Positions 4,911 to 37,197 of a stretch of DNA of 64,000 nt are shown piece by piece. The position numbers and the translations under genes were made by a program. The DNA is from Nocardioides jishulii (lineage in GTDB: Bacteria > Actinomycetota > Actinomycetes > Propionibacteriales > Nocardioidaceae). The notes below the pieces were generated by a model. That model was not told the DNA's origin. It worked only from the letters and a program-made list of their open reading frames with translations, and did no database searches. How positions within the stretch are numbered: position 1 is the first letter of the stretch; the number at the start of each line of letters is the position of its first letter. The DNA lies in contig NZ_CP040748.1 of the NCBI RefSeq assembly GCF_006007965.1, positions 2,728,001 to 2,792,000 of the forward strand. Reading direction: 5' to 3'.

Positions 4911-6572
4911 TCAGTGGAAGAAGTGGCGGGTGCCGGTGAAGTACATCGTCACGCCGGCCGCCTGGCAGGCCTCGATGGTCAGCGCGTCACGCACCGAGCC
5001 ACCGGGCTGGACGATCGCCTTGACGCCGGCCTCGATGAGGATCTGCGGGCCGTCCTCGAAGGGGAAGAAGGCGTCGGAGGCTGCGACGGCACCGCGAGCG
5101 CGCTCCTGGCCCTCGACGAGCGTGTTGGCGCGCTCGACGGCGAGGCGGCAGGAGTCGACGCGGTTGACCTGGCCCATGCCGATGCCGACCGAGCCGCCGT
5201 CCTTGGCCAGCAGGATCGCGTTGGACTTGGCCGAGCGGCAGGCCTTCCAGGCGAACGCGAGGTCGGCCAGGGTCGCCTCGTCGGCTGCCTCGCCCGTCGC
5301 CAGGGTCCAGCTGGTCGGGTCGTCGCCGCCACCCTCGACCACTGCGTCGACGTGGTCGACCGTCTGCACCAGCAGGCCGCCCGAGATCGGACGGGTCTCG
5401 ACCGGGGCACCACCGTCGACCGGAGCCACGAGGATGCGGATGTTCTTCTTGCGGGCGAGGATCTCCACGGCACCGTCCTCGTAGCCCGGAGCCACGATGA
5501 CCTCGGTGAAGACCTCGGCGACCTGCTCGGCCATCTCGACCGAGACGGGGCGGTTGGAGGCGATCACGCCACCGAAGGCGGAGACCGGGTCGCACTCGTG
5601 GGCCCGGCGGTGCGCCTGGGCGATGTCGGAGCCGACGGCCACGCCGCACGGGTTGGCGTGCTTGATGATCGCGACGGCAGGCTCTGCGAAGTCGCCTGCC
5701 GCTCGGCGCGCGGCATCGGTGTCCACGTAGTTGTTGTAGGACATCTCCTTGCCGTGCAGCTGCTCCGCCTGCGCGAGACCGGTCGCACCGGAGCCGTTGA
5801 CGTAGAGCGCCGCCTTCTGGTGCGGGTTCTCGCCGTAGCGGAGCACGGTGGACTTCTCGTAGGTGGCGCCGATCCACGCCGGGAAGCCGGTCGAGGTGCC
5901 CTCCTCGTCGACCGAGGAGTCGGTGAGCACCGACCCCATCCAGCTCGCGACCGCGACGTCGTAGGAGGCGGTGTGGACGAAGGCCGCGGCGGCGAGCTTC
6001 TTGCGCTCCGCGTAGGTGAAGCCACCGGCGGCCACGGCGGCCAGCACGGCGTCGTAGGCGGTCACGTCGGTGACGACGGCGACCGAGGGGTGGTTCTTGG
6101 CGGCGGCACGCACCATCGAGGGGCCGCCGATGTCGATCTGCTCGACGCACTCGTCCGGGGTGGCGCCGGAGGCCACCGTCTGGGTGAACGGGTAGAGGTT
6201 GACCACGACGAGGTCGAAGGGAGCGACGCCGAGCTCGTCGAGCTGGTCGACGTGGTCCTGGAGGCGGCGGTCGGCGAGGATGCCGGCGTGCACGCGGGGG
6301 TGCAGGGTCTTGACGCGGCCGTCGAGGCACTCGGGGAAGCCGGTGAGCTCCTCGACCTTCGTGACGGGCAGGCCGAGCTTCTCGATCAGGGCGGCGGAGC
6401 CACCGGTGGAGACGAGCTCGACACCGGCGTCGTGCAAGCCACGGACGAGGCCCTCGAGACCGGTCTTGTCGTAGACCGAGACCAGCGCCCGACGGATCGG
6501 GACCTGTCGGTCGGCGCTGTGCTGATGGGCGCCGGAGGCGTGGGGCTGGTGGGCGGTGGGCACGGAAGACAC
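4911..6572 (-). CDS. purH: Bifunctional AICAR transformylase / IMP cyclohydrolase
   Basis: Last two steps of purine synthesis: AICAR is formylated with 10-formyl-THF and cyclised to IMP. Length 553 aa. The N-terminal IMP-cyclohydrolase (MGS-like) domain starts at about residue 22 ([16 protein letters not shown]) and has [21 protein letters not shown]; the transformylase domain carries [39 protein letters not shown] and the C-terminal QPGGSVRD. The start is GTG at 6572, preceded at once by GAGGAGAAGCA; the open frame continues 55 codons upstream only because it crosses the riboswitch. AICAR itself is ZMP, so this gene consumes the precursor of the riboswitch ligand. Confidence 0.96.
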
Positions 6573-22971: not shown

Positions 22972-24279
22972 ATGGACCAGACGACAGACCCGACTCCCGG
23001 GCAGCCCGGCGCCGCCGGAGCCGACGCAGCACCCGGTGGCCCCATGCCGCAGGACGGCCCCCACGTGGACTGGGAGCACGTCAAGGACGTGAACCGCATG
23101 CACCGACCGGCCGACCGCATGGTCGCCGGTGTGGCCTCAGGCCTGGCTCGTCACTTCAACCTCGATCCGCTCGTGCTGCGGGTGGCCTTCGGCGTGCTGG
23201 CGCTCTTCGGCGGCGCCGGGATCCTGCTCTACGCGGCGTTGTGGCTGCTCCTGCCCGAGGACGGAAGGACGGACGCCACCATCCCCCTCGACGAGCGGAA
23301 CCGCAGCGTCGCCCTGGCCGTCGTCGCCGCCCTGGCCTGCCTGGCGCTCGTGGGTGACTCGTGGGGCCTCTACTGGTTCCCGTGGCCGCTCGCGGTGGTC
23401 GCGGTCGTCGGCTGGTTCCTCTACTCGCGCCGCGCACCGCACCAACGAGCCGCCACCCCACCGCCCGGCACGCCGGGAGGCATGGCGTACGCCGCTGGGG
23501 CCCCGGCGGACCCGACTCCGGCACCGGCTCAGGCCGCACCGGCGCGGGCACCGGTCGCAGCATCGCCAGGTGCACCGGGAGCGCCCCCGACGGGGCCGGG
23601 CCCCACAACGTACGCGTGGACTCCCACGCCCCCACCCGCCCCGCGGCCCCCGCTGGCCCGTCCGCGCGACCCACGACGGCGTGGTCCGGTGCTCTTCTGG
23701 TTCACGCTCGCCCTGGTCGCGCTGGCGATGGGCGTGCTAGGCACCGTCGACCTGGCTGGCGTGGCCGTGCCCGCCAGCGCCTACCCGGCGTTGGCGATGA
23801 CGATCTGCGCGGCGATGCTCGTCCTCGGCGCCTTCTGGGGCCGGGCCGGGGGCATCATCGCCCTCGGGCTGGTCGCTGCGGTCGCCACCGCGGGCGCCCT
23901 GACCGCGGAGCGCTGGGACGACCAGGCCGGTCGCGAGGTCAACGCGCCCACGGCGGCCAGCGAGGTCCGTGACCACTACGACTTCCGTCGCGGCGAGCTG
24001 AGGCTCGACCTCACCGACGTCACCGACCTCGAGGCCCTGGACGGTCGCGACGTCCTCGTCGAGGCGGGGGCGGGCCGCATCGTGCTCGTGCTGCCCGAGG
24101 AGCTGCGCGTCGACCTGCGCGCCGAGGTCGGCGGTCCGGGCGCCATCATGCTCCCGGACGGGCAGGAGCGCGGCGGCATCGCCGTCAGCACCCAGACCTC
24201 GGTCGGCCCCGACGAGGGCCCACGCATGGAGATCACCGCCGAGCTCGGCGTGGGCGAGATCGAGGTGGTGCAGCGATGA
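22972..24279 (+). CDS. PspC-domain membrane protein with C-terminal LiaF-like adhesin domain
   Basis: 435 aa from ATG 22972. A Pro/Gly-rich start leads into a PspC domain (about 45-105: RMVAGVASGLARHFNLDPLVLRVAFGVLALFGG ... LWLLLPEDGR), two more helices, a long low-complexity linker of Pro/Ala/Thr (about 150-225), further helices, and a C-terminal beta-rich domain (DVTDLEALDGRDVLVEAGAGRIVLVLPEELRVDLRAEVG) like the toastrack/LiaF-type domains of stress proteins. It shares its promoter region with the PspC kinase and overlaps the next gene by 4 nt. Confidence 0.85.
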   Translation: MDQTTDPTPGQPGAAGADAAPGGPMPQDGPHVDWEHVKDVNRMHRPADRMVAGVASGLARHFNLDPLVLRVAFGVLALFGGAGILLYAALWLLLPEDGRTDATIPLDERNRSVALAVVAALACLALVGDSWGLYWFPWPLAVVAVVGWFLYSRRAPHQRAATPPPGTPGGMAYAAGAPADPTPAPAQAAPARAPVAASPGAPGAPPTGPGPTTYAWTPTPPPAPRPPLARPRDPRRRGPVLFWFTLALVALAMGVLGTVDLAGVAVPASAYPALAMTICAAMLVLGAFWGRAGGIIALGLVAAVATAGALTAERWDDQAGREVNAPTAASEVRDHYDFRRGELRLDLTDVTDLEALDGRDVLVEAGAGRIVLVLPEELRVDLRAEVGGPGAIMLPDGQERGGIAVSTQTSVGPDEGPRMEITAELGVGEIEVVQR

Positions 24280-24623
24280 GCACCGACGGACCCGGCGCAC
24301 AGGAGGAGTGGACGATGGAGACGAACGACGTGACCGTCCCGGTCGAGGTCGGCACGACGAGCCGTGGGGGCCGCCACCCCGTCAACCTCACCCACCTGAT
24401 CATGGGCGTGGCCTTCGCCGCCTTCGCGCTGATCTGGGTCGCGGTCACCGCGGAGTGGTTGCCTGTCGACGACCTGCGGTGGGTGCTGCCGCTCCCGTGG
24501 CTGCTCGCCGGTTCCGCGGGTCTGCTCGCCGCGACCTTGGGCGGCCGGCGCAGCGAACGCGGCCCGGAGCTCGGGGGCGACGCCGGGGTGGTCGGGGACC
24601 ACCGCGTCGACCCGCGCCCGTAG
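24276..24623 (+). CDS. Small two-helix membrane protein coupled to the PspC gene
   Basis: 115 aa; start ATG overlaps the PspC-gene stop (ATGA). Two hydrophobic helices, LTHLIMGVAFAAFALIWVAVTAEW and WVLPLPWLLAGSAGLLAATLG, joined by a charged loop; the short tail is Gly/Asp-rich. No known domain recognised. A role in the same envelope-stress module is suggested only by translational coupling. Confidence 0.75.
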   Translation: MSTDGPGAQEEWTMETNDVTVPVEVGTTSRGGRHPVNLTHLIMGVAFAAFALIWVAVTAEWLPVDDLRWVLPLPWLLAGSAGLLAATLGGRRSERGPELGGDAGVVGDHRVDPRP

Positions 24624-24661
24624 GAAGGCCCCGCCCCGGACGAGGTCGCCCGGTGGCGACT

Positions 24662-24679
24662 TGTGCAACAAGTTGCACA
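24662..24679. promoter_or_regulatory. Perfect dyad TGTGCAAC-AA-GTTGCACA upstream of the luciferase-like gene
   Basis: Two complementary 8-mers around AA. A second dyad, TGACAG/CTGTCA (24705-24721, 5-nt loop), lies between it and the GTG at 24789. The first looks like a repressor operator; the regulator is not in the window. Confidence 0.5.
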
Positions 24680-24788
24680 CACCTGCTCGAAACCCTTGCC
24701 ATCGTGACAGTGGCTCTGTCAGAGTCCGGGGTGGGCGCCTGTCCGTCGGGCCGCCCACGACCGCAGACGCAGCCAGAATGAGGTGCCC

Positions 24789-25829
24789 GTGAAGCTCGCC
24801 ACCATGCTCATGTACGACGGCAATCCCCGCAGCGCGGCGGACACCGTCAGCTCCTACGAGAAGGCCGGTCTCGACACGGTCTGGGTGGCCGAGGCCTACG
24901 GCTTCGACTCCCCCACCCTGATGGGCTACCTGGCCGCGAAGACCGAGACCATCGAGATCGGCTCGGCCATCCTCAACATCTACTCGCGTACGCCCGGTGC
25001 CCTGCTGCAGACCGCCGCCGGCCTCGACAACGTCTCCGGGGGTCGTGCGATCCTGGGCCTCGGCGCCTCCGGCCCGCAGGTCATCGAGGGCTTCCACGGC
25101 GTGCCCTACCGCAAGCCGCTGGCCCGCACGGCCGAGATCATCGACCTCGTCCGCCGCGGACTCAAGCGCGAGGTGCTCACCAACGACGGCGAGTTCCAGC
25201 TGCCGCTGACCAAGGAGCGCGGCGCCGTCACCGGGCTGGGCAAGCCACTGAAGCTGCTCACCCGCCCCGAGCGCGACACCATCCCGATCTACATCGCTGC
25301 CCTCGGCGCCAAGAGCGTCGAGCAGGCCGCCACCATTGCCGACGGCTGGATCCCCCACCTCTTCCACCCCGGCAAGGCCGATCTCGTCTGGGGCGACGCC
25401 CTGGCCGCCGGCGCGGCGAAGCGCCAGGAGGGTCTGGCGCCGCTGGAGATCGTCGCCAACGTGATGGTCGCCATCGGCGACGGCCCGGAGACGAAGCAGA
25501 TGCTCGACTTCGCGCGTCCGCTCTTCGCCCTCTACGTCGGCGGCATGGGCGCCAAGGGCAAGAACTTCTACAACGACATCGCCAAGGCCTACGGCTACGA
25601 GAAGGAGGCCGAGGAGATCCAGGAGCTCTACCTCTCGGGCAAGAAGCGCGAGGCCGAGGCCGCCGTGCCGCTGGAGTGGCTCGAGGCCGCCAACCTCGTC
25701 GGCCCGGAGTCCTACGTCAAGGAGCGCATCGCCGCCTTCCGGGAGGCCGGCGTGACCAACCTGTCGGTCACCCCCGCCACCGCCGACCCGGTGGCCACGA
25801 TCGAGCAGATGAAGGGGCTCGTCTCCTGA
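24789..25829 (+). CDS. LLM-class F420-dependent oxidoreductase
   Basis: 346 aa from GTG 24789, chosen because TGAGG sits 6 nt upstream; a GTG two codons earlier would overlap that site. Luciferase-like TIM barrel: MLMYDGNPRSAADTVSSYEKAGLDTVWVAEAYGFDSPTLMGYLA-type N-terminus, IGSAILNIYSRTP, NVSGGRAILGLGASGPQVIEGFHG, and PIYIAALGAKSVEQAATIADGWIPH, all standard for the F420-using branch. Substrate unknown; such enzymes often reduce or oxidise lipids and xenobiotics. Followed by an intrinsic terminator and then the acyl-CoA synthetase gene in the same direction. Confidence 0.9.
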   Translation: MKLATMLMYDGNPRSAADTVSSYEKAGLDTVWVAEAYGFDSPTLMGYLAAKTETIEIGSAILNIYSRTPGALLQTAAGLDNVSGGRAILGLGASGPQVIEGFHGVPYRKPLARTAEIIDLVRRGLKREVLTNDGEFQLPLTKERGAVTGLGKPLKLLTRPERDTIPIYIAALGAKSVEQAATIADGWIPHLFHPGKADLVWGDALAAGAAKRQEGLAPLEIVANVMVAIGDGPETKQMLDFARPLFALYVGGMGAKGKNFYNDIAKAYGYEKEAEEIQELYLSGKKREAEAAVPLEWLEAANLVGPESYVKERIAAFREAGVTNLSVTPATADPVATIEQMKGLVS

Positions 25830-25853
25830 CGTCAGCCAGCACGACAGCCCGCG

Positions 25854-25889
25854 CGGCCCGGACCGACCGGTCCGGGCCGCCGTGCTTTT
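25854..25889 (+). terminator. Rho-independent terminator
   Basis: Eleven-bp stem CGGCCCGGACC (25854-25864) with its complement (25869-25879), 4-nt loop, followed by GTGCTTTT: one of the few in the window with a T-run. Confidence 0.85.
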
Positions 25890-25988
25890 CTCGGGCTTCC
25901 CCTCGAAATTGTCGCCCGCTTCAGTGAGACTCACCTGACACCGTCTCGTGACGCAGGTCACAGGCTGATATCCATGGAGGGAAATCTG

Positions 25989-27905
25989 ATGACGGACGTA
26001 CTCACCGAGAGAGCGCGTGTCGAACGAATCCTGGGCGGACACACCCTGGTCGACCACCTGGCCTCCACCGCCTCGCAGTTCCCCGACGAACCCGCCTACT
26101 CCGACCGGCACGAGGTCAGCGAGGGCTGGCGGACGCTCTCGTGGACCCAGACCCGCGAAGCTGCCCTCGACGTGGCCGCCGGTCTCATCGCACTGGGGGT
26201 CGAGCCCGGCCAGCCCGTGGCGATCATGGCGACCAACCGCATCGAGCACGTGCTCGCCGACATGGGCGCGGTGCACGCCGCCGCCATCCCGATGTCGATC
26301 TACAACACCCTCTCCCCCGACCAGGTGGCCTACATCGCCGACCACTCGGGCACCCGTCACGTCATCGTCGAGAGCGCCGACCACCTCGCCCGCTGGTCCG
26401 GGGCGCTGGTCGACGCACCCGACACCACCGTGGTGGTCATCGACGAGGCGGCCATGCCCGAGGGCGACCACTTCCTCTCGTGGTCCCAGCTCGTGGCGGC
26501 CGGCGCCGCACTCCGCCGCGACCGCGCCGGAGCACTCGAGGCACGCGCCGAGGCCGTCACGCCCAGCACACCGGCCACGATCCTCTACACGTCGGGCACC
26601 ACCGGAAACCCCAAGGGCGTGGTGCTGACCCACCACAACGTGCTGTGCGAGGCACAGACCACCATCGAGGCCGCCGGACTCATGGGGCAGCGCCAGGTCC
26701 AGATCAGCTACCTGCCGCTCGCCCACATCGCCGAACGCGTCCTGGGCGTCTACGGCCCCACTCTCCAGGGGAGCCACCAGTACTGCATCGGTGATCCGGC
26801 CCAGCTCGTCGCGACCCTGGGCGAGGTGCATCCCACGGCCTTCTTCGGCGTCCCGCGCGTGTGGGAGAAGATCCAGACCGGAATCTCGGCCAAGCTCGCC
26901 GCCGACCCCAACCCCGACAACGTCACGCTGGTGCAGGAGTCGATGGCAGCCGGCCTCGCCTGGGTGCAGGCGCAGGAGACCGGCGGCACCATGACGCCGG
27001 AGATCGAGGAGAACTACCGCAAGGCGGACGAGGCGATCCTGGGCTTCCTCAAGCTCCTCCTGGGGCTCGACCAGGCCCGCTGGTGCGCGTCGGCCTCCGC
27101 GCCGATGCCCGTCGAGACCACGAAGTTCATGGCAGGACTCGGCCTGCGGGTGTACGACGTCTACGGCATGACCGAGACCTGCGGGGCGGTGACGGTCAAC
27201 GGTCCTGACCACTTCCGCATCGGCAGCGTCGGCGTCCCGACACCGGGCATGGAGGTCATGCTGGCCGACGACGGCGAGATCCTGGTCCGCGGCCCGGTCA
27301 ACACGCCGGGCTACTACCGCCAGGACGAGGCGACACGGCAGCTGATCGACTCCCAGGGGTGGCTGCACACCGGCGACATCGGCACCCAGGACGAGGACGG
27401 CTTCTTCTACGTCGTCGACCGCAAGAAGGAGCTGATCATCACCTCGGCGGGCAAGAACATCGCGCCCTCCAACATCGAGAACCATCTCAAGGAGTCGCCG
27501 TTGATCGGCCACGCCATGGCGATCGGGGACAACCGCCCCTACGTGGTGGCCGTGCTGACGCTCGACGGCGAGGTCGCCCCGGTCGTCGCGGAGCGGATGG
27601 GCCTGGAGTTCACCTCCCTGGCCGACCTGTCGGCCAAGGCCGAGATCCGTGCCCTCGTCCAGGCCGCTGTCGACAAGGCCAACGAACGCCTCTCGCGCCC
27701 CGAGCAGGTCAAGGCCTTCGCCCTCCTGGCCCACGAGTGGACCGCCGAGTCCGAGGAGCTCACCCCTTCGCTCAAGCTGAAGCGCCGGGTCGTGCACCGC
27801 AAGTACGCGGACGTGGTGGACGAGCTCTACGCCGAGGGCGATCGAGGCGGCACCGGCAAGGAGAGCGTCCCCGACGCCGCAGTCGAGTCCTCGATAAGCG
27901 AGTAA
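25989..27905 (+). CDS. Long-chain acyl-CoA synthetase (AMP-forming)
   Basis: 638 aa. ATG 25989 has GGAGGG 7 nt upstream; an ATG at 25974 overlaps that site and is less likely. Adenylate-forming family: P-loop ILYTSGTTGNPKGVVLTH (about residue 196), A5 YGMTETCG, A7/A8 GWLHTGDIG and VDRKKELIITSAGKNIAPSNIEN, C-terminal KLKRRVVHRKYADVVDELYAEG. Length and the LSRPEQVKAFALL tail are those of FadD15-like fatty acyl-CoA ligases. It precedes the SDR-monooxygenase-transporter-epimerase operon, separated by a large hairpin, and may supply CoA activation for the same pathway. Confidence 0.9.
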   Translation: MTDVLTERARVERILGGHTLVDHLASTASQFPDEPAYSDRHEVSEGWRTLSWTQTREAALDVAAGLIALGVEPGQPVAIMATNRIEHVLADMGAVHAAAIPMSIYNTLSPDQVAYIADHSGTRHVIVESADHLARWSGALVDAPDTTVVVIDEAAMPEGDHFLSWSQLVAAGAALRRDRAGALEARAEAVTPSTPATILYTSGTTGNPKGVVLTHHNVLCEAQTTIEAAGLMGQRQVQISYLPLAHIAERVLGVYGPTLQGSHQYCIGDPAQLVATLGEVHPTAFFGVPRVWEKIQTGISAKLAADPNPDNVTLVQESMAAGLAWVQAQETGGTMTPEIEENYRKADEAILGFLKLLLGLDQARWCASASAPMPVETTKFMAGLGLRVYDVYGMTETCGAVTVNGPDHFRIGSVGVPTPGMEVMLADDGEILVRGPVNTPGYYRQDEATRQLIDSQGWLHTGDIGTQDEDGFFYVVDRKKELIITSAGKNIAPSNIENHLKESPLIGHAMAIGDNRPYVVAVLTLDGEVAPVVAERMGLEFTSLADLSAKAEIRALVQAAVDKANERLSRPEQVKAFALLAHEWTAESEELTPSLKLKRRVVHRKYADVVDELYAEGDRGGTGKESVPDAAVESSISE

Positions 27906-27943
27906 TTCACTTTACTTACTCATTTCAAGGTAGGTTCCCGCGA

Positions 27944-27976
27944 GATGCGCACCCCGTCGACGACGGGGTGCGCATC
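27944..27976. terminator. Large perfect palindrome between acyl-CoA synthetase and SDR genes
   Basis: Sixteen-bp arms (GATGCGCACCCCGTCG at 27944-27959 and its complement at 27961-27976) around a single A. As RNA it is a very strong hairpin and could terminate or attenuate between the two genes; as DNA it could be an operator. AT-rich sequence with TTTACTTACTCATTT precedes it (27911-27925), possibly a promoter for the downstream operon. Confidence 0.6.
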
Positions 27977-28028
27977 GCCGCCCGAGGCGGCCACGTCGTG
28001 GCAGCCACTCACGCCCACAGGAGGACAG

Positions 28029-28793
28029 GTGCCCAGGACAAGCCCTGGCAGGGACCGCCCGGTGGCGGTGATCACCGGAGGCTCCGGCGCCATCGGCACC
28101 GCTCTGGCCCACCGCCTCGACGAGGCCGGTTGGAGCGTCGTCTGCATCGACCTCGGTGCCGACCAAGGCCCTGACGACCCCACCTTCCTGGCGTGCGACA
28201 TCACCGACGACGCGGCCGTACGCAGCACCTTCGCCGCCGTCGAACAGCGCTACGGCCGGCTCGACCTGCTGGTCAACAACGCCGGCATCTCTGCCATCGG
28301 GCGTTTCACCGACCACGACGTCACCACCCACGCGAAGGTGATGGCGGTCAACTACCTGGGCGCCGTCTCCTGCACCCAGGCGGCGCTGCCGGCCCTGACA
28401 CGCAGTCACGGCAGGGTTGTCGTCACCAGCTCGGTCACCGGGTTCGCCCCGGTGCTCGGCAGGCCGGCGTACGTCGCCGCGAAGCACGCAGTGACCGGCC
28501 TCTTCACGGCCCTGCGGCCCGAGCTCGCCGCCTCGGGCGTCGGCGTGACGCTCGTGCACCCGACGTTCGTCACCGGCGGGATGTCCGAGGCCGCCGGGCG
28601 TGCCGACGGGACCGAGCGCAGCACCACCGGGGGCGAGATCACGCCCGACGACGTCGCCCGCGCGATCGTCGACGCCGTCACCCGCGGGACCGACCAGGTG
28701 TTCGTCGGGCGCTCTGCCCGCGCCGCGTGGCACCTGTGGCGGCTCGCACCCCGCACCTACGTCCGCACCATGACCAGGAGGTTGTCCCAGTGA
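28029..28793 (+). CDS. Short-chain dehydrogenase/reductase
   Basis: 254 aa from GTG 28029 with AGGAGG 4 nt upstream. Classical SDR: cofactor loop TGGSGAIGTALA (about 18), DxD-type CIDLGAD, CDITDDAA, NNAGISAIG, catalytic Ser in VVTSSVTGFAP and YVAAK (Tyr/Lys). The C-terminus HLWRLAPRTYVRTMTRRL is hydrophobic/basic and may touch membrane. First gene of a four-gene operon in which each start overlaps the preceding stop (GTGA, ATGA, ATGA). Substrate unknown; probably an alcohol/ketone in a degradation pathway. Confidence 0.88.
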   Translation: MPRTSPGRDRPVAVITGGSGAIGTALAHRLDEAGWSVVCIDLGADQGPDDPTFLACDITDDAAVRSTFAAVEQRYGRLDLLVNNAGISAIGRFTDHDVTTHAKVMAVNYLGAVSCTQAALPALTRSHGRVVVTSSVTGFAPVLGRPAYVAAKHAVTGLFTALRPELAASGVGVTLVHPTFVTGGMSEAAGRADGTERSTTGGEITPDDVARAIVDAVTRGTDQVFVGRSARAAWHLWRLAPRTYVRTMTRRLSQ

Positions 28794-30130
28794 GCCCCAC
28801 CGACCAGTTGACCTGGGCCGTCATCGGCGCCGGTCCCACCGGCCTCGCCGCGGCCCGTGCCCTCCAACGGCACGAGCTGCCGTGGGCAGGCTACGAGGCC
28901 GCCAGCGGCGTCGGAGGGCTCTGGGACATCTCCTCCCCACGCAGCACGGTCTACGAGTCGGCCCACCTGATCTCGTCGCGCACGACCACGGAGTTCGCCG
29001 AGTTCCCGATGGAGACCTCGGTCGCGGACTACCCCGACCACCGCGCCCTCAAGCGCTACTTCGACGCCTACGCCGACCACTTCGGCCTGCGTACGGGCTT
29101 CGCCTTCGACACCGAGGTGACACGGGTCGAGCCCTCGGGCACCGAGTGGCTGGTCACCAGCACCGGGCCGGAGGGCACGACCACCCGCCGCCATGCCGGC
29201 GTGCTGATCGCCAACGGCACGCTCGCCGAGCCCGCCGTGCCGACCTTCGAGGGCAGCTTCGACGGCGAGGTGCTGCACACGAGCCGCTACAAGAGTGCGC
29301 GCACCTTCGCCGACCAGCGGGTCCTGATCATCGGGGCCGGCAACTCCGGCTGCGACATCGCGGTCGACGCCGTGCACCACGCCGCCTCGGTCGACCTGAG
29401 CGTGCGGCGCGGCTACTACTTCGTGCCCAAGTACATGCTCGGCAAGCCGTCCGACACCCTCAACCAGGGCAAGCCGATGCCCCGGCGCATCAAGCAGGCC
29501 CTCGACAGCCGGTTGCTCCGACTCTTCACCGGCGACCCGGTGAAGTTCGGCTTCCCGAAGCCGGACTACAAGATCTACGAGTCGCACCCGGTGGTGAACT
29601 CCCTCGTCCTGCACCACGTCGGCCACGGCGACATCGACGTACGCGGTGACGTGGCGCGCTTCGAGGGCCACGACGTGCTCTTCAAGGACGGCACCCGCGG
29701 CACCTACGACACCGTGGTGCTGGCCACCGGCTACCACCTGCACTACCCGTTCGTGGACCCCGCGCACCTCAACTGGACCGGTCCCGGGAGCGGCACCTCC
29801 CCCGACCTGCACCTCAACATCTTCCCGGGCGTACGAGGCCACGAGGCCACCCGCAACCTCTTCGTCCTCGGCATGGTCGAGGCCTCGGGCCTCGGCTGGC
29901 AGGGGCGCTACGAACAGGCCGAGCTGGTCGCCGGCTACCTCGCCGCCCGCGGTGAGGCACCCGAGCGGGCCGAGGCCCTCGACGCCGCCATCGCAGGGCC
30001 ACGTCCCGACCTGACGGCCGGCTACCGCTACCTGGGGCTCGAGCGGATGAGCTACTACGTCAACAAGGACGCCTACCGCACCGCCGTGCGCGAGGCGTCC
30101 GCAGCGCTGCGGACGGAGGTCACCGCATGA
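28790..30130 (+). CDS. Flavin-containing monooxygenase
   Basis: 446 aa from GTG 28790, overlapping the SDR stop. FAD motif GAGPTG (13-18), FMO identifier FDGEVLHTSRYK (the F-x-G-x-x-x-H-x-x-x-Y-K/R pattern), NADPH motif IIGAGNSGCDIA, and a C-terminal VLATGYHLHYPF, the ATGY motif. FMO rather than Baeyer-Villiger type by the identifier sequence, though class-B enzymes of this kind can oxidise ketones as well as N/S atoms. It is in an operon with an SDR, a BASS transporter and an epimerase-like dehydrogenase. Confidence 0.9.
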   Translation: MSPTDQLTWAVIGAGPTGLAAARALQRHELPWAGYEAASGVGGLWDISSPRSTVYESAHLISSRTTTEFAEFPMETSVADYPDHRALKRYFDAYADHFGLRTGFAFDTEVTRVEPSGTEWLVTSTGPEGTTTRRHAGVLIANGTLAEPAVPTFEGSFDGEVLHTSRYKSARTFADQRVLIIGAGNSGCDIAVDAVHHAASVDLSVRRGYYFVPKYMLGKPSDTLNQGKPMPRRIKQALDSRLLRLFTGDPVKFGFPKPDYKIYESHPVVNSLVLHHVGHGDIDVRGDVARFEGHDVLFKDGTRGTYDTVVLATGYHLHYPFVDPAHLNWTGPGSGTSPDLHLNIFPGVRGHEATRNLFVLGMVEASGLGWQGRYEQAELVAGYLAARGEAPERAEALDAAIAGPRPDLTAGYRYLGLERMSYYVNKDAYRTAVREASAALRTEVTA

Positions 30131-31059
30131 TGCTCCTGGCAGCCGACGACGTCGACGGCATCCGGATCGCCTTCGAGGAGGGGTCGCTGACGACCCTCAA
30201 GATCGTGATCGGCGCGATCCTCTTCGGCATCGCGCTCGACACCAAGGTCGAGGACTTCAAGCTCGCGCTCAGGCGCCCCGGCACGATCGCCATCGGCGTG
30301 GTGGCGCAGTTCCTGCTGCTCCCGGCGCTGACGTTCCTGCTGACGCTGCTGCTCGACGTCCGGGGCTCCGTGGCGCTCGGCATGATCCTGGTGGCGTGCT
30401 GCCCGCCCGGCAACGTCTCCAACATCCTCACGCACCGCGCCCGCGGCGACGTGGCACTGTCAGTCTCGATGACGGCCGTCGGCAACGTGCTGGCGATCTT
30501 CCTGATGCCCCTCAACGTGGCCTTCTGGGGCGCACTGCACCCGACCGGGCGCAAGGTGCTCGAGGACATCGAGCTCTCCGCCTTCGACATGCTCGTCGAG
30601 GTCGGGCTGGTCATCGGCGTCCCCTTCGTCGCCGGCATCACGATCGCCCACTTCTGGCCGCGCTTCGCGCAGCGGGCCGGCCGCCTCGTGGGTCCGGTCG
30701 CCTTCCTCGGCCTGGGAGCGGTGATCGTCGTGGGCGTCGCCAACAACTGGTCGATCTTCGTCGACCACATCGGGGTCGTCCTGGTCGCCGTTTTCCTCCA
30801 CGACGCACTGGCGCTGGCGCTCGGGTGGGCCATTGCCCGAATGACGCGCCTGCCCGAGGCGAGCACCAAGGCGATGACGTTCGAGGTCGGCATCCGCAAC
30901 GCCGGCCTCGGTCTGCTGCTCGTCTTCACCTACTTCGACGGCCTCGGCGGCATGGCGCTCGTGGCGGCCTGGTGGGGCATCTGGGACATCATCGCGGGAC
31001 TCGCGCTCGCCCAGTGGTGGGGCGTCCGCAGCCGCACGAAGGTCGAGGTCGTCGCATGA
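30127..31059 (+). CDS. Bile acid:sodium symporter family transporter
   Basis: 310 aa, ATG overlapping the FMO stop. About nine helices; family traits are VAQFLLLPALTFLL, the conserved CCPPGNVSNILTHRARGDVALSVSMTAVGN segment (the discontinuous helix that binds Na+ in BASS/ASBT proteins) and the late TFEVGIRNAGLGLLLVF segment. Likely imports an organic anion with sodium. Its place between a monooxygenase and a 3beta-HSD-like dehydrogenase suggests it brings in the pathway substrate. Confidence 0.87.
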   Translation: MMLLAADDVDGIRIAFEEGSLTTLKIVIGAILFGIALDTKVEDFKLALRRPGTIAIGVVAQFLLLPALTFLLTLLLDVRGSVALGMILVACCPPGNVSNILTHRARGDVALSVSMTAVGNVLAIFLMPLNVAFWGALHPTGRKVLEDIELSAFDMLVEVGLVIGVPFVAGITIAHFWPRFAQRAGRLVGPVAFLGLGAVIVVGVANNWSIFVDHIGVVLVAVFLHDALALALGWAIARMTRLPEASTKAMTFEVGIRNAGLGLLLVFTYFDGLGGMALVAAWWGIWDIIAGLALAQWWGVRSRTKVEVVA

Positions 31060-32012
31060 GCCTCACGGTGCTGGTGACCGGCGGCAGCGGCTTCCTCGGC
31101 ACCTCCGTGGTCCGCGGTCTCGCCAGGCGCGGCCACGCCGTGCTCTCGGCGGACCTGCGCCACCGCGGCGAGGCGCCGGCCGGTGTCGAGCAGCTGACGA
31201 TGGACGTCACGGACGCGGACGCCGTCGAGGCGGCGTTCGCCCACCACGACGTCGACGTCGTCGTCCACCTGGCCTCCATCGTGACGCCGGGCCAGGACTC
31301 GGACGTCGACCTGGAGTACGCGGTCGACGTCACCGGCACCCGCCACGTGCTCGACGCCTGCCTGCGCCACGGCGTACGCCGCGTGGTCGTCTCGTCGTCG
31401 GGTGCGGCGTACGGCTACCACCCCGACAACGGCGCCGCCCACGGCGGCTGGCTCACCGAGGACGACCCGGTCCGGGGCAACCACGAGTTCGTCTACAGCC
31501 GCCACAAGCGGCTCGTCGAGGAGATGCTGGCCGAGCTGCGCACCACCCACCCCGAGCTGGAGCAGGTCGTCCTGCGCATCGGCACGATCCTCGGCGAGTC
31601 GGTCGACAACCAGATCACCGCGCTCTTCGAGAAGCAGCGGTTGCTCAAGATCCGCGGGGCCGAGTCACCCTTCGTCTTCATCTGGGACACCGACGTGGTC
31701 GGCGCGATCGAGCGGGCCGTCACGGGCGAGGTGACCGGCATCTTCAACGTGGCCGGCGACGGAGCCCTGACGATCGACGAGATCGCCGCCCGTCTGGGCC
31801 GCGGCACGATCGCCGTTCCCGAGCCGCTCATGAAGGTCGTGCTGGGCGTCGGTCGGCGCCTCGGGGTGAGCCGCTACGGCCCGGAGCAGACCGTCTTCCT
31901 GGCCCACCGTCCGGTGCTCGACAACACCCGCCTCCGCACGGTCCTGGGCTACGTGCCGGAGAAGTCCAGCGCCGAGGCGTTCGACGCCTGGCGAGTGGCG
32001 CGGGGCCTCTGA
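31056..32012 (+). CDS. NAD-dependent epimerase / 3beta-hydroxysteroid dehydrogenase-like protein
   Basis: 318 aa, ATG 31056 overlapping the transporter stop. Extended SDR: TGGSGFLGTSVVRGL (9-23), VVHLASIVTPGQD, SSSGAAYGYHP with catalytic Ser, and YSRHKRLVEEML with the YxxxK pair. The C-terminal third (VFLAHRPVLDNTRLRTVLGYVPEKSSAEAFDAW) is typical of the NAD(P)-dependent epimerase/3beta-HSD group. Last gene of the operon. The exact substrate, sugar nucleotide or steroid-like alcohol, is not decidable; the neighbours favour the latter. Confidence 0.87.
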   Translation: MSLTVLVTGGSGFLGTSVVRGLARRGHAVLSADLRHRGEAPAGVEQLTMDVTDADAVEAAFAHHDVDVVVHLASIVTPGQDSDVDLEYAVDVTGTRHVLDACLRHGVRRVVVSSSGAAYGYHPDNGAAHGGWLTEDDPVRGNHEFVYSRHKRLVEEMLAELRTTHPELEQVVLRIGTILGESVDNQITALFEKQRLLKIRGAESPFVFIWDTDVVGAIERAVTGEVTGIFNVAGDGALTIDEIAARLGRGTIAVPEPLMKVVLGVGRRLGVSRYGPEQTVFLAHRPVLDNTRLRTVLGYVPEKSSAEAFDAWRVARGL

Positions 32013-32034
32013 GGTCTCCTGGCGGCAGGACCTC
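32011..32034. terminator. Imperfect hairpin between convergent genes
   Basis: GAGGTC..CCTG pairs with CAGG.ACCTC across a GCGG loop; two bases are bulged. Placed at the convergence of the epimerase gene and the binding-protein pseudogene. Confidence 0.4.
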
Positions 32035-32043
32035 GCGTGACCC

Positions 32044-33073
32044 TCAGCGGAGGGCGAGCTCCTCGCAGGACTTCAGGAGATTCTTCGGGCAGAGCTGGTC
32101 GAGGGTGTAGACGCCGTCACGCAGGACCGTCTGGGCTACGGTGTCGCGGGTGACGACGACCGGCTCCACCAGCAGCGCGGGGACGCCGTCGTACTCGGTG
32201 GTGTCCTCGGGCTCCTCGTCGAGCATCAGGTCGATCGCGAGGTCGGCCGCTCGCTGGGCCATCGTCTTGATCTGCTTGTAGACCGTGAGCCCCTGGGTCC
32301 CGGCGATCACGCGCTCCACCGCCGACAGCTCGGCGTCCTGTCCGGTGACGAAGGGATAGTTCTTGCCCCGGACCTTCAGCTCGGAAAGGGCCTCGACCAC
32401 GCCTGCGGCCTGGGTGTCGTTGCCCGCGAGGATCCCGTCGACCCGGCCGATGCGACCCTTCTGGTCCAGCACGAACTTCTTGGCGGCGTCCGCGCTCCAG
32501 GTGTCGGGCGAGGCCTGGGCCAGGACCTTCACGCGGTGGCGCTTGAAGACCCCGAGGGCGGCCTCCCTGATCGCCGCGGCGTTGGCGTCACCGGCAGCGC
32601 CGTTGACCATGAGCACGCGGGAGCGGCGACCCTTCGCGTCGACGATGCCCTGCGCCATCATGCGACCGATGACCGCCGGGTCGGCGGAGACGAAGTAGTC
32701 GGCGCCCGGCAGGAACCGGTCGTAGGCGACCACCGGCACGTCACCGGCCTCCTCGACCAGCTGGCCTGCCGCCTCACTGTCGACCGCGTTGAGCACGATC
32801 ACGTCCGCGCCGTCGTCCAGCGCCTCACGGAACTGCTCCGCCTGTCGGTCGGCGTCACGATCCGCGTAGGAGACGTAGTCGCACCCCTGGCAGGCGTCCC
32901 TCGACGTGCTGGGAGAAGACGGGCTCGTCGATCTCGGTCCACCGGCTCGCCTGCGACGAGGCGAGCAGCAGAGCCACCACGGCCTTGTCGGGCTTGACGC
33001 AGCCAGTCAGGCCGACCGCGCACATCGCGCACGCGGCGGCGAGAAGGAAACGCAACCACAACTTGTTGCCCAT
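32044..33073 (-). pseudogene. Xylose-type ABC substrate-binding lipoprotein, frameshifted
   Basis: Two frames make one XylF/periplasmic-binding protein. The first (33073 to about 32900) gives a lipoprotein signal with lipobox VGLTGC and [29 protein letters not shown]. The second, one base out of register, continues [45 protein letters not shown], then VPVVAYDRFLPGADYFVSADPAVIGRMMAQGI and a full C-terminus to 32044. Removing one G from the GGG run at 32898-32900 restores a single 342-aa protein. No permease or ATPase gene is adjacent. It is either a true mutation or a base-calling error; a downstream GTG could still express a signal-less fragment. Confidence 0.8.
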
Positions 33074-33121: not shown

Positions 33122-33652
33122 TCAGCTCACCCCGAGCCCGACCCGCACCACGTGCACCGCGTCGGCCATGATGCGCCGTACGGCCTTGAACTCGGCCGGA
33201 GTCCACTGCAGCTTGTAGGTGTCAAGCCCGTAGACGCTCGGGATCGTGGCCTTGGTGAGCTTCTCGTAGCACTCGTCGGCCAGGCGCCCCTTGTCGTGGA
33301 AGGGGATGTCGAGGGTGTGGGAGACGTCGGTGGCGAAGTTCCACAGGAACATCGCCGACTCGGGGGCGACGGGCGCACGCTCGCTCTCCAGTCGCCGCTG
33401 GGCGCCGCTGAAGTCCATGAGGGTGGACTGGTCGGAGGTGATGCCGGCATCCCAGTCGATCTCCCACCCGGCCTCCTCGGCGTGGGCGACGGCCGCCTCG
33501 ACGGACTCCCAGGTCATGAGCCGCCCGTCATGCGCTGCGAGCACCTCCCTGTCGCCCTCTCCCTTGCCCCACCAGAGCACGACGTCGCGGCCGTCGAAAC
33601 GGATCACGACCGCCTGACCCGGGTCGGGGACGACGAGGGTGGGGCTCTTCAC
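33122..33652 (-). CDS. Hypothetical protein coupled to guaA
   Basis: 176 aa if started at GTG 33652, which overlaps the guaA stop as GTGA; a GTG at 33658 adds two residues. Soluble, with no signal or membrane segment. Visible: [24 protein letters not shown], a segment [19 protein letters not shown], and a helical C-terminus ([25 protein letters not shown] ... [13 protein letters not shown]). I do not recognise the family. Tight coupling to guaA implies cotranscription, not necessarily related function. Confidence 0.7.
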
Positions 33653-35223
33653 TCCCACTCGATCGTGCCCGGGGGCTTCGAGGTGATGTCGATGGTGACG
33701 CGGTTGATCTCCGCGACCTCGTTGGTGATCCGGGTGGAGATCTTCTCCATGACCTCGTAGGGGAGGCGCGCCCAGTCGGCGGTCATGGCGTCCTCGGAGG
33801 TGACCGGGCGCAGCACGACAGGGTGGCCGTAGGTACGTCCGTCGCCCTGGACGCCGACCGAGCGGACCTCGGCCAGCAGCACGACCGGCATCTGCCAGAT
33901 CTCACGGTCGAGGCCGGCCTTGGTCAGCTCCTCGCGTGCGATGGCGTCGGCCTGACGGAGCGTGTCGAGACGGTCCTTGGTGACCTCGCCGATGATCCGG
34001 ATGCCCAGGCCGGGGCCGGGGAACGGCTGGCGCCACACCATGCGCTCGGGCAGGCCCAGCTGCTCACCGACCGCACGTACCTCGTCCTTGAAGAGGGCAC
34101 GCAGCGGCTCGACGAGCGCGAAGTTGAGGTCGTCGGGGAGTCCGCCGACGTTGTGGTGCGACTTGATCGTGGAGGTGCCGGCGCCACCACCGGACTCGAC
34201 GACGTCGGGGTAGAGGGTGCCCTGCACCAGGTAGGCAGTGGCCTCGCCCTCCCCCTCCGTCACAGCGTCGCCGAAGACACGCACCTGGGCGGCCTCGAAG
34301 GTCCGGATGAACTCGTGGCCGATGATCTTGCGCTTGGTCTCCGGCTCGGTGACCCCCGCCAGTGCGGTGAGGAACTGCTCCTCGGCGTCGACCACGTCGA
34401 GGGAGTCGAAGACCTCCTCGAAGTCGCGGCGGACCTGCTCGGTCTCGCCCTGGCGCATCATCCCGTGGTCGACGTAGACGCAGGTGAGGCGGTCACCGAT
34501 CGCGCGCTGCACCAGGGCCGCGGCCACCGCGGAGTCCACGCCGCCCGAGAGCGCGCAGATGGCGCGGCCCTCACCGACCTGCTCGCGGATCTTCTCGACC
34601 TGCTCCTCGACGACGTTGAGCATCGTCCAGGTCTGGCGACAGCCCGCGATGTCGTGGAGGAAGTGCTCCAGCACGCGCTGGCCGTGCTCGGAGTGCAGGA
34701 CCTCGGGGTGCCACTGCACGCCTGCCATGCGGCGCTCGAGGTCTTCGAAGGCGGCCACCGGGGTGACCTCCGTCGACGCCAGGACGGAGAAGCCGGTGGG
34801 CGCCTGGGTGACGGTGTCACCGTGGCTCATCCACACGTTGTGCTGGACGGGCAGCTCGGCGAGCAGGGTGCCGGGCTGGCTGATCGTCACGGGCGTACGT
34901 CCGTACTCGCGCGTCCCGGTCGAGGCGACCTCGCCGCCGAGGCCCTGGGCCATGAGCTGGAAGCCGTAGCACATGCCGAAGACCGGCACGCCCGAGGCGA
35001 AGAGGGCCGGGTCGAGGGCCGGGGCACCCGCTGCGTAGACGCTGGAGGGACCACCCGACAGGATGATCGCGGCGGGGTTGCGAGCCAGCATGTCCTCGAC
35101 GGTCGTGCCGTGCGGCACGATCTCGGAGTAGACCCTGGCCTCGCGGACGCGACGGGCGATCAGCTGGGCGTACTGCGCCCCGAAGTCGACCACCAGGACA
35201 AGATCGTGTTCAGGCGCAGTCAT
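33649..35223 (-). CDS. guaA: GMP synthase (glutamine-hydrolysing)
   Basis: Converts XMP to GMP with glutamine and ATP. 524 aa from ATG 35223. Glutaminase domain: [26 protein letters not shown], nucleophile Cys in GMCYGFQLM, His/Glu in [13 protein letters not shown]. Synthetase domain: P-loop [23 protein letters not shown], then C-terminal dimerisation part [18 protein letters not shown] and [10 protein letters not shown] -10 box TAGGAT (35231-35236) ends 7 nt before ATG, so it may be leaderless. Part of the guanine-nucleotide set with guaB2 and guaB3 14 kb away. Confidence 0.96.
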
Positions 35224-35230
35224 ACCCCCG

Positions 35231-35236
35231 ATCCTA
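35231..35236 (-). promoter_or_regulatory. -10 box of guaA, probably leaderless
   Basis: TAGGAT on the minus strand, 7 nt from the ATG at 35223; G-rich spacer could also act weakly as a ribosome site. Confidence 0.5.
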
Positions 35237-35296
35237 TCCGGCCGACGTAGCTCACGAGCCGCTGAGGTCGCCACGGCGACCTTCCCGGAAATGCAC

Positions 35297-35332
35297 CAGG
35301 GCCCGACCGGGAGGGAGGGTGGCCGGGCCCTG
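35297..35332 (-). terminator. Hairpin downstream of the GMC oxidoreductase gene
   Basis: CAGGGCCCG (35297-35305) with CGGGCCCTG (35324-35332) and extra CC/GG pairs. It lies about 155 bp after the oxidoreductase stop; the AT-rich stretch 35440-35475 between them holds no gene that I can support. Confidence 0.55.
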
Positions 35333-35487
35333 ACTGCCCACCAGGTCAAGGACCGGCTGGGCACGACCCGCGCATCAAAGGGAGGGAGAGATGTAGCGGG
35401 CCTGCAGGGCAATCATGACCCAGACCCCGTGTCGTCAGGCCAAATTCAGCAAAACCTCAACTTTTTTCTTGACATGTAGGACACCCG

Positions 35488-37197
35488 TCAGGTGATGGAC
35501 ACCACAGGCAGTCGCAGCGCAGCCGGGGCCGCTTCCGGCACCGCGGGTCGCCGCGGAGCGACGGGACGGATCGGCCGGTAGGCCTCCCCCAACGCCGGCC
35601 GCGCGTCAGGCTCTCCCTTGTTGGGCCAGTACGCCATCGCGCGCTCCGCCTGGGCCGTGATCGTGAGCGACGGGTTGACCCCCAGGTTGGCGGAGATCGC
35701 CGAGCCGTCGACGACGTGGATCCCGGGGTGCCCGAAGGCCCGCTGGTAGGGATCCACCACACCGTTGTCCGGACTGTCGCCGATGGTGCAACCACCGATG
35801 AAGTGGGCGGTGAGGGGTCGGTTGAAGGGCTCACCGATGGAACCGCCGGGCGTCCCGCCGAGAAGGTCGGACATCCGCCGCGTCGCCTCGTACGCCACCT
35901 TGATGTAGGTGGGGTTCGGCTCGCCGTGACCCTGGACGCTCGACATGCGCCAGCCGAACGGCGTCTTCGCCGGCACGGTGGTGATCGAGTTGTCCTTGGT
36001 CTGCATCACGAGCGCGATGATCGCCCGCTCCGACCAGTGCTTGAGGTCGTAGAGGTCGAAGACCTCCGCGCGCTTCGCCCACATCTCCTTGACCCAGTTG
36101 AGCGCCCGGTTCTGGCCCGGGACGTCGTCGACGAGCACGGTCTGGAGCAGCGACATCACGTTGCTGCCGTGGCCGTAGCGGACCGGCTCGATGTGGGTCT
36201 CCGCGTCGGGGTGGATCGAGGAGGAGATGGCCACGCCGTAGCTGTAGTCGACGCTGCGGTCGGGAGCGATCGCCCCGAGGATGGCCTCGGAGTTGGTGCG
36301 GGTGAGCACGCCGAGACGGTCGGAGATGTGCGGCAGGTCGCCGCTGCTCTTGAGCCGGTGCAGCAGCTTCTGGGTGCCCAGCGCGGCGGCCGAGAAGATC
36401 ACCTGGTCACACGTGAAGCTCTTCACCGCCGTACGCCGCGAGAGCTTCGCCTTCGTCCAGCGCGCGGTCACCTCGTACCCACCCTCGGCGCGGGGTCGCA
36501 CCCGGGTGACGGTGGTGAGCGGGTGCACGACGGCGCCCATCTGCTCGGCCAGGTGGAGGTAGTTCTTGACCAGCGTGTTCTTGGCGTTGTGACGACACCC
36601 CGTCATGCACTCGCCGCAGTTGAGGCACGTCCGCCGGGACGGGCCGACGCCGCCGAAGAACGGGTCCGCGACCTCGCTGCCCTCGTCCTGTCCGGGACCA
36701 CCGAAGAAGACCCCGACCGGGGTGGGGTGGAAGGAGTCCGCCACGCCCATCTCCTCGGCAACCTTCTCCATCACGTCGTCCGAGGGCGTACGCACGGGGT
36801 TGGTCACCACGCCGAGCATCCGCTTGGCCTGGTCGTAGTAGGGCGCCAGCTCCGACTTCCAGTCGGTGATGTGGGCCCATGACGGGTCGGAGTAGAAGGG
36901 GTCGAGCGGTTCGTAGAGCGTGTTGGCGTAGACGAGCGAGCCGCCGCCGACGCCGGCTCCTGCCAGGATCATGCAGTCACGCACCATGTCGATGCGCTGG
37001 ATCCCGTAGAGGCCGGCCGCCGGCGCGAAGAGGTAGCGCTTCAGGTCGAACGACGTGCGCGGGAAGTCCTCGTCGGAGAAGCGGGCGCCCGCCTCCAGGA
37101 CGGCGACGGAGTAGCCCTTCTCGCTCAGGCGCAGCGCGCTGACCGAGCCGCCGAACCCTGAGCCGATGATGACGACGTCGTAGTGCGGCACGACCAT
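35488..37197 (-). CDS. GMC-family oxidoreductase, ChoD (cholesterol oxidase)-like
   Basis: 569 aa FAD enzyme. FAD motif VVIIGSGFGGSVSALRLSE (8-26), GAGVGGGSLVYANTLY (flavin contact), a Cys-rich CLNCGECMTGCRHNAKNTLVKNYL, and the C-terminal GMC signature HFIGGCTIG ... GIHVVDGSAISANLGVNPSLTITAQAERA. Block-by-block it agrees with what I recall of mycobacterial ChoD (Rv3409c), which also lies in a guaA-guaB3 neighbourhood. The true substrate is uncertain even in mycobacteria. No signal peptide, so cytoplasmic. It shares one base (TGATG) with the aldehyde dehydrogenase stop, indicating an operon. Confidence 0.9.
   Translation of the reverse strand: MVVPHYDVVIIGSGFGGSVSALRLSEKGYSVAVLEAGARFSDEDFPRTSFDLKRYLFAPAAGLYGIQRIDMVRDCMILAGAGVGGGSLVYANTLYEPLDPFYSDPSWAHITDWKSELAPYYDQAKRMLGVVTNPVRTPSDDVMEKVAEEMGVADSFHPTPVGVFFGGPGQDEGSEVADPFFGGVGPSRRTCLNCGECMTGCRHNAKNTLVKNYLHLAEQMGAVVHPLTTVTRVRPRAEGGYEVTARWTKAKLSRRTAVKSFTCDQVIFSAAALGTQKLLHRLKSSGDLPHISDRLGVLTRTNSEAILGAIAPDRSVDYSYGVAISSSIHPDAETHIEPVRYGHGSNVMSLLQTVLVDDVPGQNRALNWVKEMWAKRAEVFDLYDLKHWSERAIIALVMQTKDNSITTVPAKTPFGWRMSSVQGHGEPNPTYIKVAYEATRRMSDLLGGTPGGSIGEPFNRPLTAHFIGGCTIGDSPDNGVVDPYQRAFGHPGIHVVDGSAISANLGVNPSLTITAQAERAMAYWPNKGEPDARPALGEAYRPIRPVAPRRPAVPEAAPAALRLPVVSIT

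Follow-up and report, generated by a model that had tools for sequence, protein, structure and literature searches.

A recurrent operon of an FMO-type flavoprotein, a BASS-family transporter, and an extended dehydrogenase in Nocardioides jishulii, with a tentative role in carbon–carbon cleavage beside a carbonyl

Gene organization of the operon

A stretch of 64,000 nucleotides of the Nocardioides jishulii genome (contig NZ_CP040748.1, positions 2,728,001 to 2,792,000; genome of 3.54 Mb in a single contig) was analyzed and is called the window here. The subject is a set of four genes at positions 28029–32012 that encode a classical short-chain dehydrogenase/reductase (SDR), a flavoprotein of the flavin monooxygenase (FMO) type, a BASS-family transporter, and an extended SDR, called the epimerase below. 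The last three recurred as a module in other genomes, and in one bacterial family an enzyme dependent on thiamine diphosphate (ThDP) stood at the FMO position. The genes of the window operon were as follows.

28029..28793, + strand: SDR (classical SDR dehydrogenase); GTG start behind AGGAGG; matched by Pfam and NCBIfam
28790..30130, + strand: FMO-type flavoprotein (class B fold) with Leu60-Ile61 at the X-Asn site of FMOs; GTG start
30127..31059, + strand: BASS-family transporter (PF01758)
31056..32012, + strand: extended SDR ("epimerase"; NAD-dependent epimerase/dehydratase fold); Gly motif, Ser, Tyr147, and Lys151 intact

All three junctions had 4-base overlaps (28790-28793, 30127-30130, and 31056-31059). 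By this layout the four genes look like one operon, and they would be transcribed together. A first-pass annotation of the window had described a stop-to-start overlapping four-gene operon at this site that joined an organic-anion transporter to several oxidoreductases. Its gene positions and family names, those of the transporter and the oxidoreductases included, were correct by open reading frames, Pfam, and NCBIfam, and the overlapping arrangement was real and recurred in the loci described below.

Recurrence of the FMO-BASS-epimerase module

A scan of named genomes found 300 FMO relatives, and the locus counts given here refer to the best 80 of these 300. Genes in the flanks were called here from codon-position G+C and were not curated. 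The FMO, BASS, and epimerase genes were adjacent in 65 of the 80 named loci, so the order that a gene-neighborhood search had been suggested to look for was not unique to this strain. In two more loci (L050 and L054), BASS was followed by the contig end, and in another two (L099 and L104), the epimerase was present without BASS. The 80 loci spanned Nocardioides, Mumia, Saccharomonospora, Ornithinimicrobium, Microbacterium, Agromyces, Leucobacter, and Isoptericola; the best named matches of the window FMO were mostly from Nocardioides. A 4-base overlap was present at 44 of 59 measurable FMO/BASS junctions and at 49 of 59 BASS/epimerase junctions, where 59 of the 80 loci were measurable for each junction and one value of -1372 (L047), a gene-call error, was included. 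Since the same overlaps recurred in this way, those of the window were not due to chance.

Relatives were searched in 58 genomes, 37 of which belonged to the genus of the window. Ten of these 37, the window genome included, carried an FMO of at least 51% identity, and BASS and epimerase lay beside it in all ten. A sample of 396 genomes of the phylum was searched with thresholds of E ≤ 1e-85 for FMO, 1e-60 for BASS, and 1e-50 for epimerase. FMO was found in 7 genomes, BASS in 9, and epimerase in 8. All three were side by side in five genomes: G000, G325, G355, G400, and G404, the last of another class. The remaining two FMO genomes (G261 and G315; 44–47% identity) had neither partner gene within 5 kb.

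The flanks were examined by Pfam. Among 20 proteins flanking 12 FMO loci, no family was seen twice. Among 37 flanking proteins of FMO-type and ThDP-type loci, only two families were seen twice: histidine phosphatase (L025 and L137) and luciferase-like PF00296 (L052 and the F420-type gene of the window). Because flanking families hardly recur, the neighbors give little clue to the substrate. Plasmid matches of BASS and epimerase had no useful neighbors. Judged from gene order, the FMO-BASS-epimerase unit appears to stand alone. Full-text searches of open-licence literature found no description of an FMO-BASS-epimerase operon and no pathway with this gene order, which agreed with the first-pass annotation, to which no pathway with precisely this order was known.

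A ThDP enzyme at the FMO position

The genomes of the phylum sample that had BASS and epimerase, beyond those with the FMO module, all belonged to one family of another class, termed f19 here. The order in two loci of this family (L134 and L135) was ThDP enzyme (588 and 603 residues), BASS, epimerase, and SDR, and the L134 junctions lay at 5814/5817, 6782/6785, and 7728/7735. The SDRs of both loci were ~40% identical to the window SDR. A BASS search of f19 gave 8 carriers among 35 genomes. ThDP enzyme, BASS, and epimerase were side by side in five of these eight (L134, L135, L146, L148, and L149). An SDR followed the epimerase in L134, L135, L148, and L149, where the L149 match covered the first 84 residues; the contig of L146 ended before this position.

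The f19 protein was similar to acetolactate-synthase-like ThDP enzymes in having three TPP_enzyme domains by Pfam and the RHE and GDG motifs, which were kept in four aligned sequences. Its nearest solved chain was BbmA (E 4e-67), and cyclohexane-1,2-dione hydrolase was also among the matches of that search. It differed from these enzymes in reaching no NCBIfam cut-off among the 25 matches listed, which included acetolactate synthase and an oxo-acid decarboxylase, and in the company of BASS and epimerase genes. At E ≤ 1e-120 the protein was present in 4 of the 396 genomes of the phylum sample, all of f19. Nine FMO-module genomes were searched for it, and nothing above 35% identity was found; the best match in the window genome had 27%.

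The two types of module were connected by G013, a genome of the genus of the window. It carried FMO, BASS, epimerase, and SDR in one direction, with an AraC-type regulator pointing away, and its FMO was 51% identical to that of the window. An SDR homologue thus ended the module both in G013 and in the ThDP-type modules. The G013 BASS was nearer to the f19 type (51.7% vs 45.9%), and its BASS and epimerase clustered with the ThDP type in trees of a hand-picked subset of named loci, where the node joining G013 to the ThDP clade had a support of only 0.65 in the BASS tree and the epimerase tree was unrooted. The G013 SDR matched at E 1.3e-38, compared with 1.4e-31 or weaker for background SDRs (39 relatives, the G016 operon SDR excepted). 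Closely related transporters and epimerases thus accompany either head enzyme.

Active site and fold of the FMO

The glycines of the FAD- and NADPH-binding GxGxxG motifs (G13, G15, and G18; G182, G184, and G187) and the ATGY motif were invariant in 18 aligned sequences. The FMO motif FxGxxxHxxx(Y/F)(K/R), as defined in PMC10682829, was present in the window protein as F157-G159-H163-Y167-K168. Some relatives had Thr or Arg at Lys168, and L104 had Ser at Gly159. The Baeyer-Villiger monooxygenase (BVMO) motif FxGxxxHxxxW(P/D) was absent, with Tyr167-Lys168 at the Trp-Pro/Asp positions.

An unexpected change was found at the dyad facing flavin C4a, where Ile61 stood in place of Asn (or Gln/His). 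Ile61 aligned with the Asn of ancestral FMO5 and with Asn57 of DiatB. Ile was present at this site in 94 of 103 aligned sequences, namely every one of the 93 with an identity of 42% or more (the window included) and L015 (35%), and Asn was present in the other 9, outgroup rows of 31–37% identity. This alignment left out FMOs that ran off a contig or had less than 80% query coverage, as well as the window copies L003 and L005, and six of its rows were tblastn pieces. The conservation of Ile61 indicated a family feature rather than decay. According to PMC10682829, the second dyad residue of FMOs is mostly Asn, with Thr, His, and Val in sparse sequences; Asn or Gln is believed to retain the C4a-intermediate, and mutating the Asn of mFMO abolished activity. 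The residue before it is described in the same source as Leu or Ile in all FMOs that perform Baeyer-Villiger chemistry, with which Leu60 of the window agrees. The N61S variant of human FMO3 is reported to lose trimethylamine oxygenation, to be weakened on three other substrates, and to bind NADP(H) poorly (PMC5676948).

YUCCA-type FMOs, which are plant indole-3-pyruvate monooxygenases, resemble the window family in that their FMO motif ends in Tyr, the dyad begins with Leu, and its second residue is not Asn, as given in PMC10682829 and PMC7570161. This likeness is known from published residues: the rice YUCCA dyad is Leu and His, and a YUCCA with His at this position is active (PMC10682829). 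The window protein had the Leu (Leu60) and, at the His site, Ile61.

The structure model of the FMO was moderate (mean pLDDT 76; residues 207-230 and 242-269 below 50), and for this reason no conclusion on the pocket was drawn from it. A fold search placed DiatB and FMOs nearest (Z 37) and BVMOs lower (Z ~24). DiatB, a flavin-dependent monooxygenase (PDB 8z12), was the nearest solved enzyme both by sequence (wild type, E 2.5e-49) and by fold (wild type, Z 37.0, rmsd 3.0 over 408 residues). Its identity to the window FMO was 28%, and DiatB Asn57 and Arg360, both mutated by the depositors, corresponded to Ile61 and Glu364.

Of 17 plasmid FMO homologues found, five were examined (L111-L115, from Agrobacterium, Burkholderia, Rhodococcus, Paraburkholderia, and Azospirillum), and all five had H-x-I-S-S at the Asn motif. 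They adjoined other partners, including SDRs, a thioesterase, and polyketide-type genes, and two of the five lay in stretches whose annotation reads like polyketide clusters. In L111, a single protein of 966 residues consisted of an amino-acid permease followed by the FMO.

Transporter and epimerase

The transporter matched PF01758 with 122.1 bits (cut-off 24.3). It was below the cut-offs of the NCBI subfamily TIGR00841 (173.3 vs 326.3 bits) and of the PanS model NF047939 (122 vs 400 bits), and in the latter respect it differed from PanS-type BASS proteins. An arsenic pair of ACR3 and ArsO was considered and rejected: the FMO scored 95.6 vs 425 bits with the ArsO model, and the transporter matched TIGR00841, not an ACR3 model. 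Sites were compared in an alignment of 70 rows, which was limited to proteins of 290–350 residues and included the paralogue L004. Gln61, Ser98, and Asn258 aligned with Gln77, Ser114, and Asn265 of ASBT_NM, whereas Arg257 stood at the Gln264 site and Asn96 at the Thr112 site. Gln77, Glu260, and Gln264 are presumably sodium ligands of ASBT_NM. Ser98 was present in 69 of the 70 rows, with Ala in one, and Arg257 (window 30895-30897) in 68. The site of ASBT_NM Asn115 had Gln in 38 rows, Asn in 31, and Ala in 1. Among the sodium ligands of ASBT_NM, PMC10645422 names Ser 114 and Asn 115. The changes at the Gln264 and Asn115 sites could alter sodium coupling.

Transport of pantoate, pyruvate, glycolate, and chain-elongated 2-keto acids is reported for plant BASS proteins (PMC10645422). 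The transporter of the operon may likewise carry a central metabolite such as pantoate, an alternative that the first-pass annotation had itself named. In keeping with this alternative, Asn258 was conserved in 70 of 70 rows, and mutation of its equivalent Asn265 in ASBT_NM is described as abolishing pantoate binding (PMC10645422).

The Gly motif, Ser, Tyr147, and Lys151 of the epimerase were kept in all 65 sequences. The protein scored higher with PF01370 (105.1 bits) than with 3Beta_HSD PF01073 (77.3 bits, above the cut-off of 22), and it also matched several other SDR-type families. Its score with the sterol SDR model SdmB was 56.5 bits against a cut-off of 600, and among the 25 curated NCBIfam matches listed it reached no cut-off. 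The structure model had a pLDDT of 92, and its best structure matches were NDP-sugar epimerases (Z 30.4, 3.2 Å over 284 residues). UDP-glucose 4-epimerase-like extended SDRs have the fold and the Ser/Tyr/Lys motif in common with the window protein, with 18–29% identity among the matches listed. The modeled fold does not give the substrate. The epimerase of L138 (5215-7005), as called, had a long repeated N-terminal extension rich in Pro, Glu, and Asp.

Proposed function of the module

YUCCA-type FMOs decarboxylate 2-oxo-acids with O2, and ThDP enzymes decarboxylate 2-oxo-acids or cleave α-diketones. Because FMO and ThDP enzyme share little else, C–C cleavage beside a carbonyl is the simplest common reading of the two module types. 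We tentatively propose, at chances somewhat below even, that the module imports a small hydroxy- or oxo-acid, oxidizes it, and cleaves a C–C bond beside a carbonyl, either by the FMO with O2 and NADPH or by the ThDP enzyme. The proposal draws on the cargo of the BASS family, which includes hydroxy- and oxo-acids, and on the ability of the two dehydrogenases to make a carbonyl. We infer the direction of transport, the type of substrate, and the cleavage reaction as follows. BASS would bring in a small carboxylate, such as a 2-hydroxy-acid, a 2-oxo-acid, or a similar α-oxygenated acid. The two SDR-type dehydrogenases would oxidize alcohols to a carbonyl beside the carboxyl or a second carbonyl. 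The FMO would then cleave the C–C bond beside the carbonyl with NADPH and O2, by analogy with YUCCA on indole-3-pyruvate; in f19, the ThDP-dependent enzyme would perform the same cleavage without O2.

All of the proteins fall into known families; the gene combination, the exchange of the head enzyme, and the Leu-Ile dyad appear undescribed in the open-licence literature covered. The swapped head enzyme hints at the chemistry of the module: exchange of an O2-dependent flavoenzyme and a ThDP enzyme at the head of a conserved operon narrows the many reactions open to an FMO to a few carbonyl-adjacent C–C cleavages, which lend themselves to direct assay. Since the module was found in several actinobacterial families, its substrate is quite possibly a common compound.

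Several results weighed against this proposal. The FMO was present without BASS and epimerase in 11 of the 80 named loci, all from Microbacterium, and only 4 of the 80 had the SDR adjoining the FMO. In f19, the G466 locus was interrupted where its contig ended, and its ThDP gene lay on a different contig. No ThDP gene adjoined the BASS-SDR pair of G392 or of G154, and G154 had ThDP-epimerase elsewhere. SDRs at ~40% identity are not very specific. The BASS proteins of the two module types were only 40–48% alike and differed at the ASBT_NM Gln264 site, where 68 of the 70 rows had Arg and G013 and L134 had Gln. It may be that each module type has its own substrate, that the ThDP enzyme joins carbon chains instead of splitting them, or that the FMO, with Ile at the Asn site, is a poor monooxygenase or lacks this activity. 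A search with laxer thresholds also found an FMO relative (40–41% identity, none of at least 51%) elsewhere in six of nine f19 genomes, with a best E of 5e-76 or better in each of the six. The two of these relatives inspected (L167 and L168) had Ile at the key site, no module gene in flanks of ~1.5 kb, and a sequence near residue 364 resembling that of the distant FMO of L110; they represent a further FMO subfamily of the Ile type. The swap therefore concerns the operon position only, not presence in the genome, and the odds of the proposed cleavage were slightly lowered.

The Microbacterium loci with FMO alone were L056, L063, L064, L065, L079, L082, L084, L087, L088, L089, and L103, with just 2.3 kb of sequence remaining at L087; they look as if the FMO were the retained part of a module.

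Alternative explanations

A narrower form of the proposed cleavage reading is doubtful. It holds that an FMO-fold enzyme without the dyad Asn does the job of the ThDP enzyme, cleaving an imported α-oxygenated acid with O2 and NADPH as a bacterial catabolic parallel to YUCCA, and that its x-Ile-Ser-Ser active site forms a new class. Other bacteria would have FMOs of this class too, including two from polyketide-like stretches. The family-wide loss of Asn offers a natural test of the role of the FMO asparagine. The same loss, with Ile in 94 of 103 sequences and the abolished activity of the mFMO mutant (PMC10682829), could also mean that the protein is no longer a monooxygenase and works as an NADPH oxidase or other flavin oxidoreductase. 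We consider this unlikely, as the nucleotide-binding and ATGY motifs were invariant in the 18 sequences, the FMO motif was nearly so, and YUCCA with His at the dyad is active (PMC10682829). Heteroatom oxygenation or detoxification, in which the FMO would N- or S-oxygenate a xenobiotic or metabolite and BASS would export or import it, is consistent with the FMO subclass motif and fold and with a set of nearest structures that includes N- and S-oxygenating FMOs. It is distinctly unlikely in view of the missing Asn, since human FMO3 N61S loses trimethylamine oxygenation (PMC5676948), and it is difficult to see how a ThDP enzyme could take the place of an enzyme with such a reaction.

The first-pass annotation had favored a steroid, bile acid, terpenoid, or cyclic ketone as the substrate. 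BASS would then import a sterol-like acid, the SDRs would be hydroxysteroid dehydrogenases, and the FMO would perform Baeyer-Villiger oxidation. Bile-acid carriers among BASS relatives, the 3Beta_HSD score of the extended SDR (77.3 bits, above cut-off), and the compatibility of Leu60 with Baeyer-Villiger chemistry support this explanation. One steroid enzyme, KstD, was examined in 10 module-carrier genomes. A KstD-like protein of 419–663 bits was present in five of them, and none passed the model NF009479 (cut-off 793 bits). The best host match had 85.3 bits, and a further piece of 26 bits lay in the same frame of 522 residues. In G404, G435, G427, and G467, the last three of which are drafts of 80–91% completeness, matches reached ~23 bits at most. 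The FMO motif ended in Tyr and not in the Trp of BVMOs, the nearest folds were DiatB and FMOs (Z 37) with BVMOs at Z ~24, and the epimerase matched PF01370 better than 3Beta_HSD. A ThDP enzyme standing where the FMO does is not known from steroid routes, which counts further against a steroid. The steroid and cyclic-ketone assignment was not supported by this evidence and is quite improbable. The main text of a steroid transcriptome of N. simplex makes no mention of symporter, bile acid, or epimerase (PMC7807495).

A putative GMC-type oxidoreductase resembling ChoD adjoins a putative guaA nearby (open reading frames 35488-37197 and 33649-35412, both on the - strand), a neighborhood that might invite a sterol interpretation.

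Neighboring genes and intergenic elements

Two genes and two stem-loops preceded the operon.

24783..25829, + strand: LLM-class F420-dependent oxidoreductase of the TIGR03559 (Rv3520c) subfamily (432 bits vs cut-off 335); neighbor
25853..25880, + strand: terminator-like hairpin with a T-rich tail in the gap between the F420-type gene and the ligase; 1 found, 1.0 expected in shuffles
25989 (or 25974)..27905, + strand: AMP-binding long-chain acyl-CoA ligase (FadD type); ATG start; matched by Pfam and NCBIfam; neighbor
27944..27976, + strand: 15-bp perfect stem-loop in the ligase/SDR gap, without a T run; from folding against shuffles

The hairpin at 25853-25880 is weak on its own as a terminator, with one such site expected by chance in the scanned stretch. 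The ligase/SDR gap (27906-28028) folded better than shuffles (z -5.8; 0 of 200 shuffles as good), and the nearest relative (G028/L006), read by eye, had a different inverted repeat at the same site. As the stem-loop there has no T run, termination at this point would be a prediction. A search of 24000-33000 with Rfam gave nothing above the gathering score.

The first-pass annotation had joined CoA activation and the F420-type oxidoreductase to the operon in a six-gene pathway. The genes are on one strand and closely spaced, and in G028 a ligase likewise preceded the FMO operon. None of the 80 named loci had a match of more than 80 bits to either gene; in 7 of the loci the sequence upstream of the FMO was shorter than 2 kb. 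Given the intervening stem-loops and the lack of recurrence of both genes, the two are probably separate from the operon: the CoA ligase probably forms its own transcript, and the F420-type gene probably lies outside the operon. Partnership of the two with the operon was not borne out, and a six-gene pathway is very improbable. Directly past the operon, a sugar-binding-protein domain (PF13407) was present at 32044-32802 on the - strand, with 138.6 bits for the xylF model, below its cut-off.

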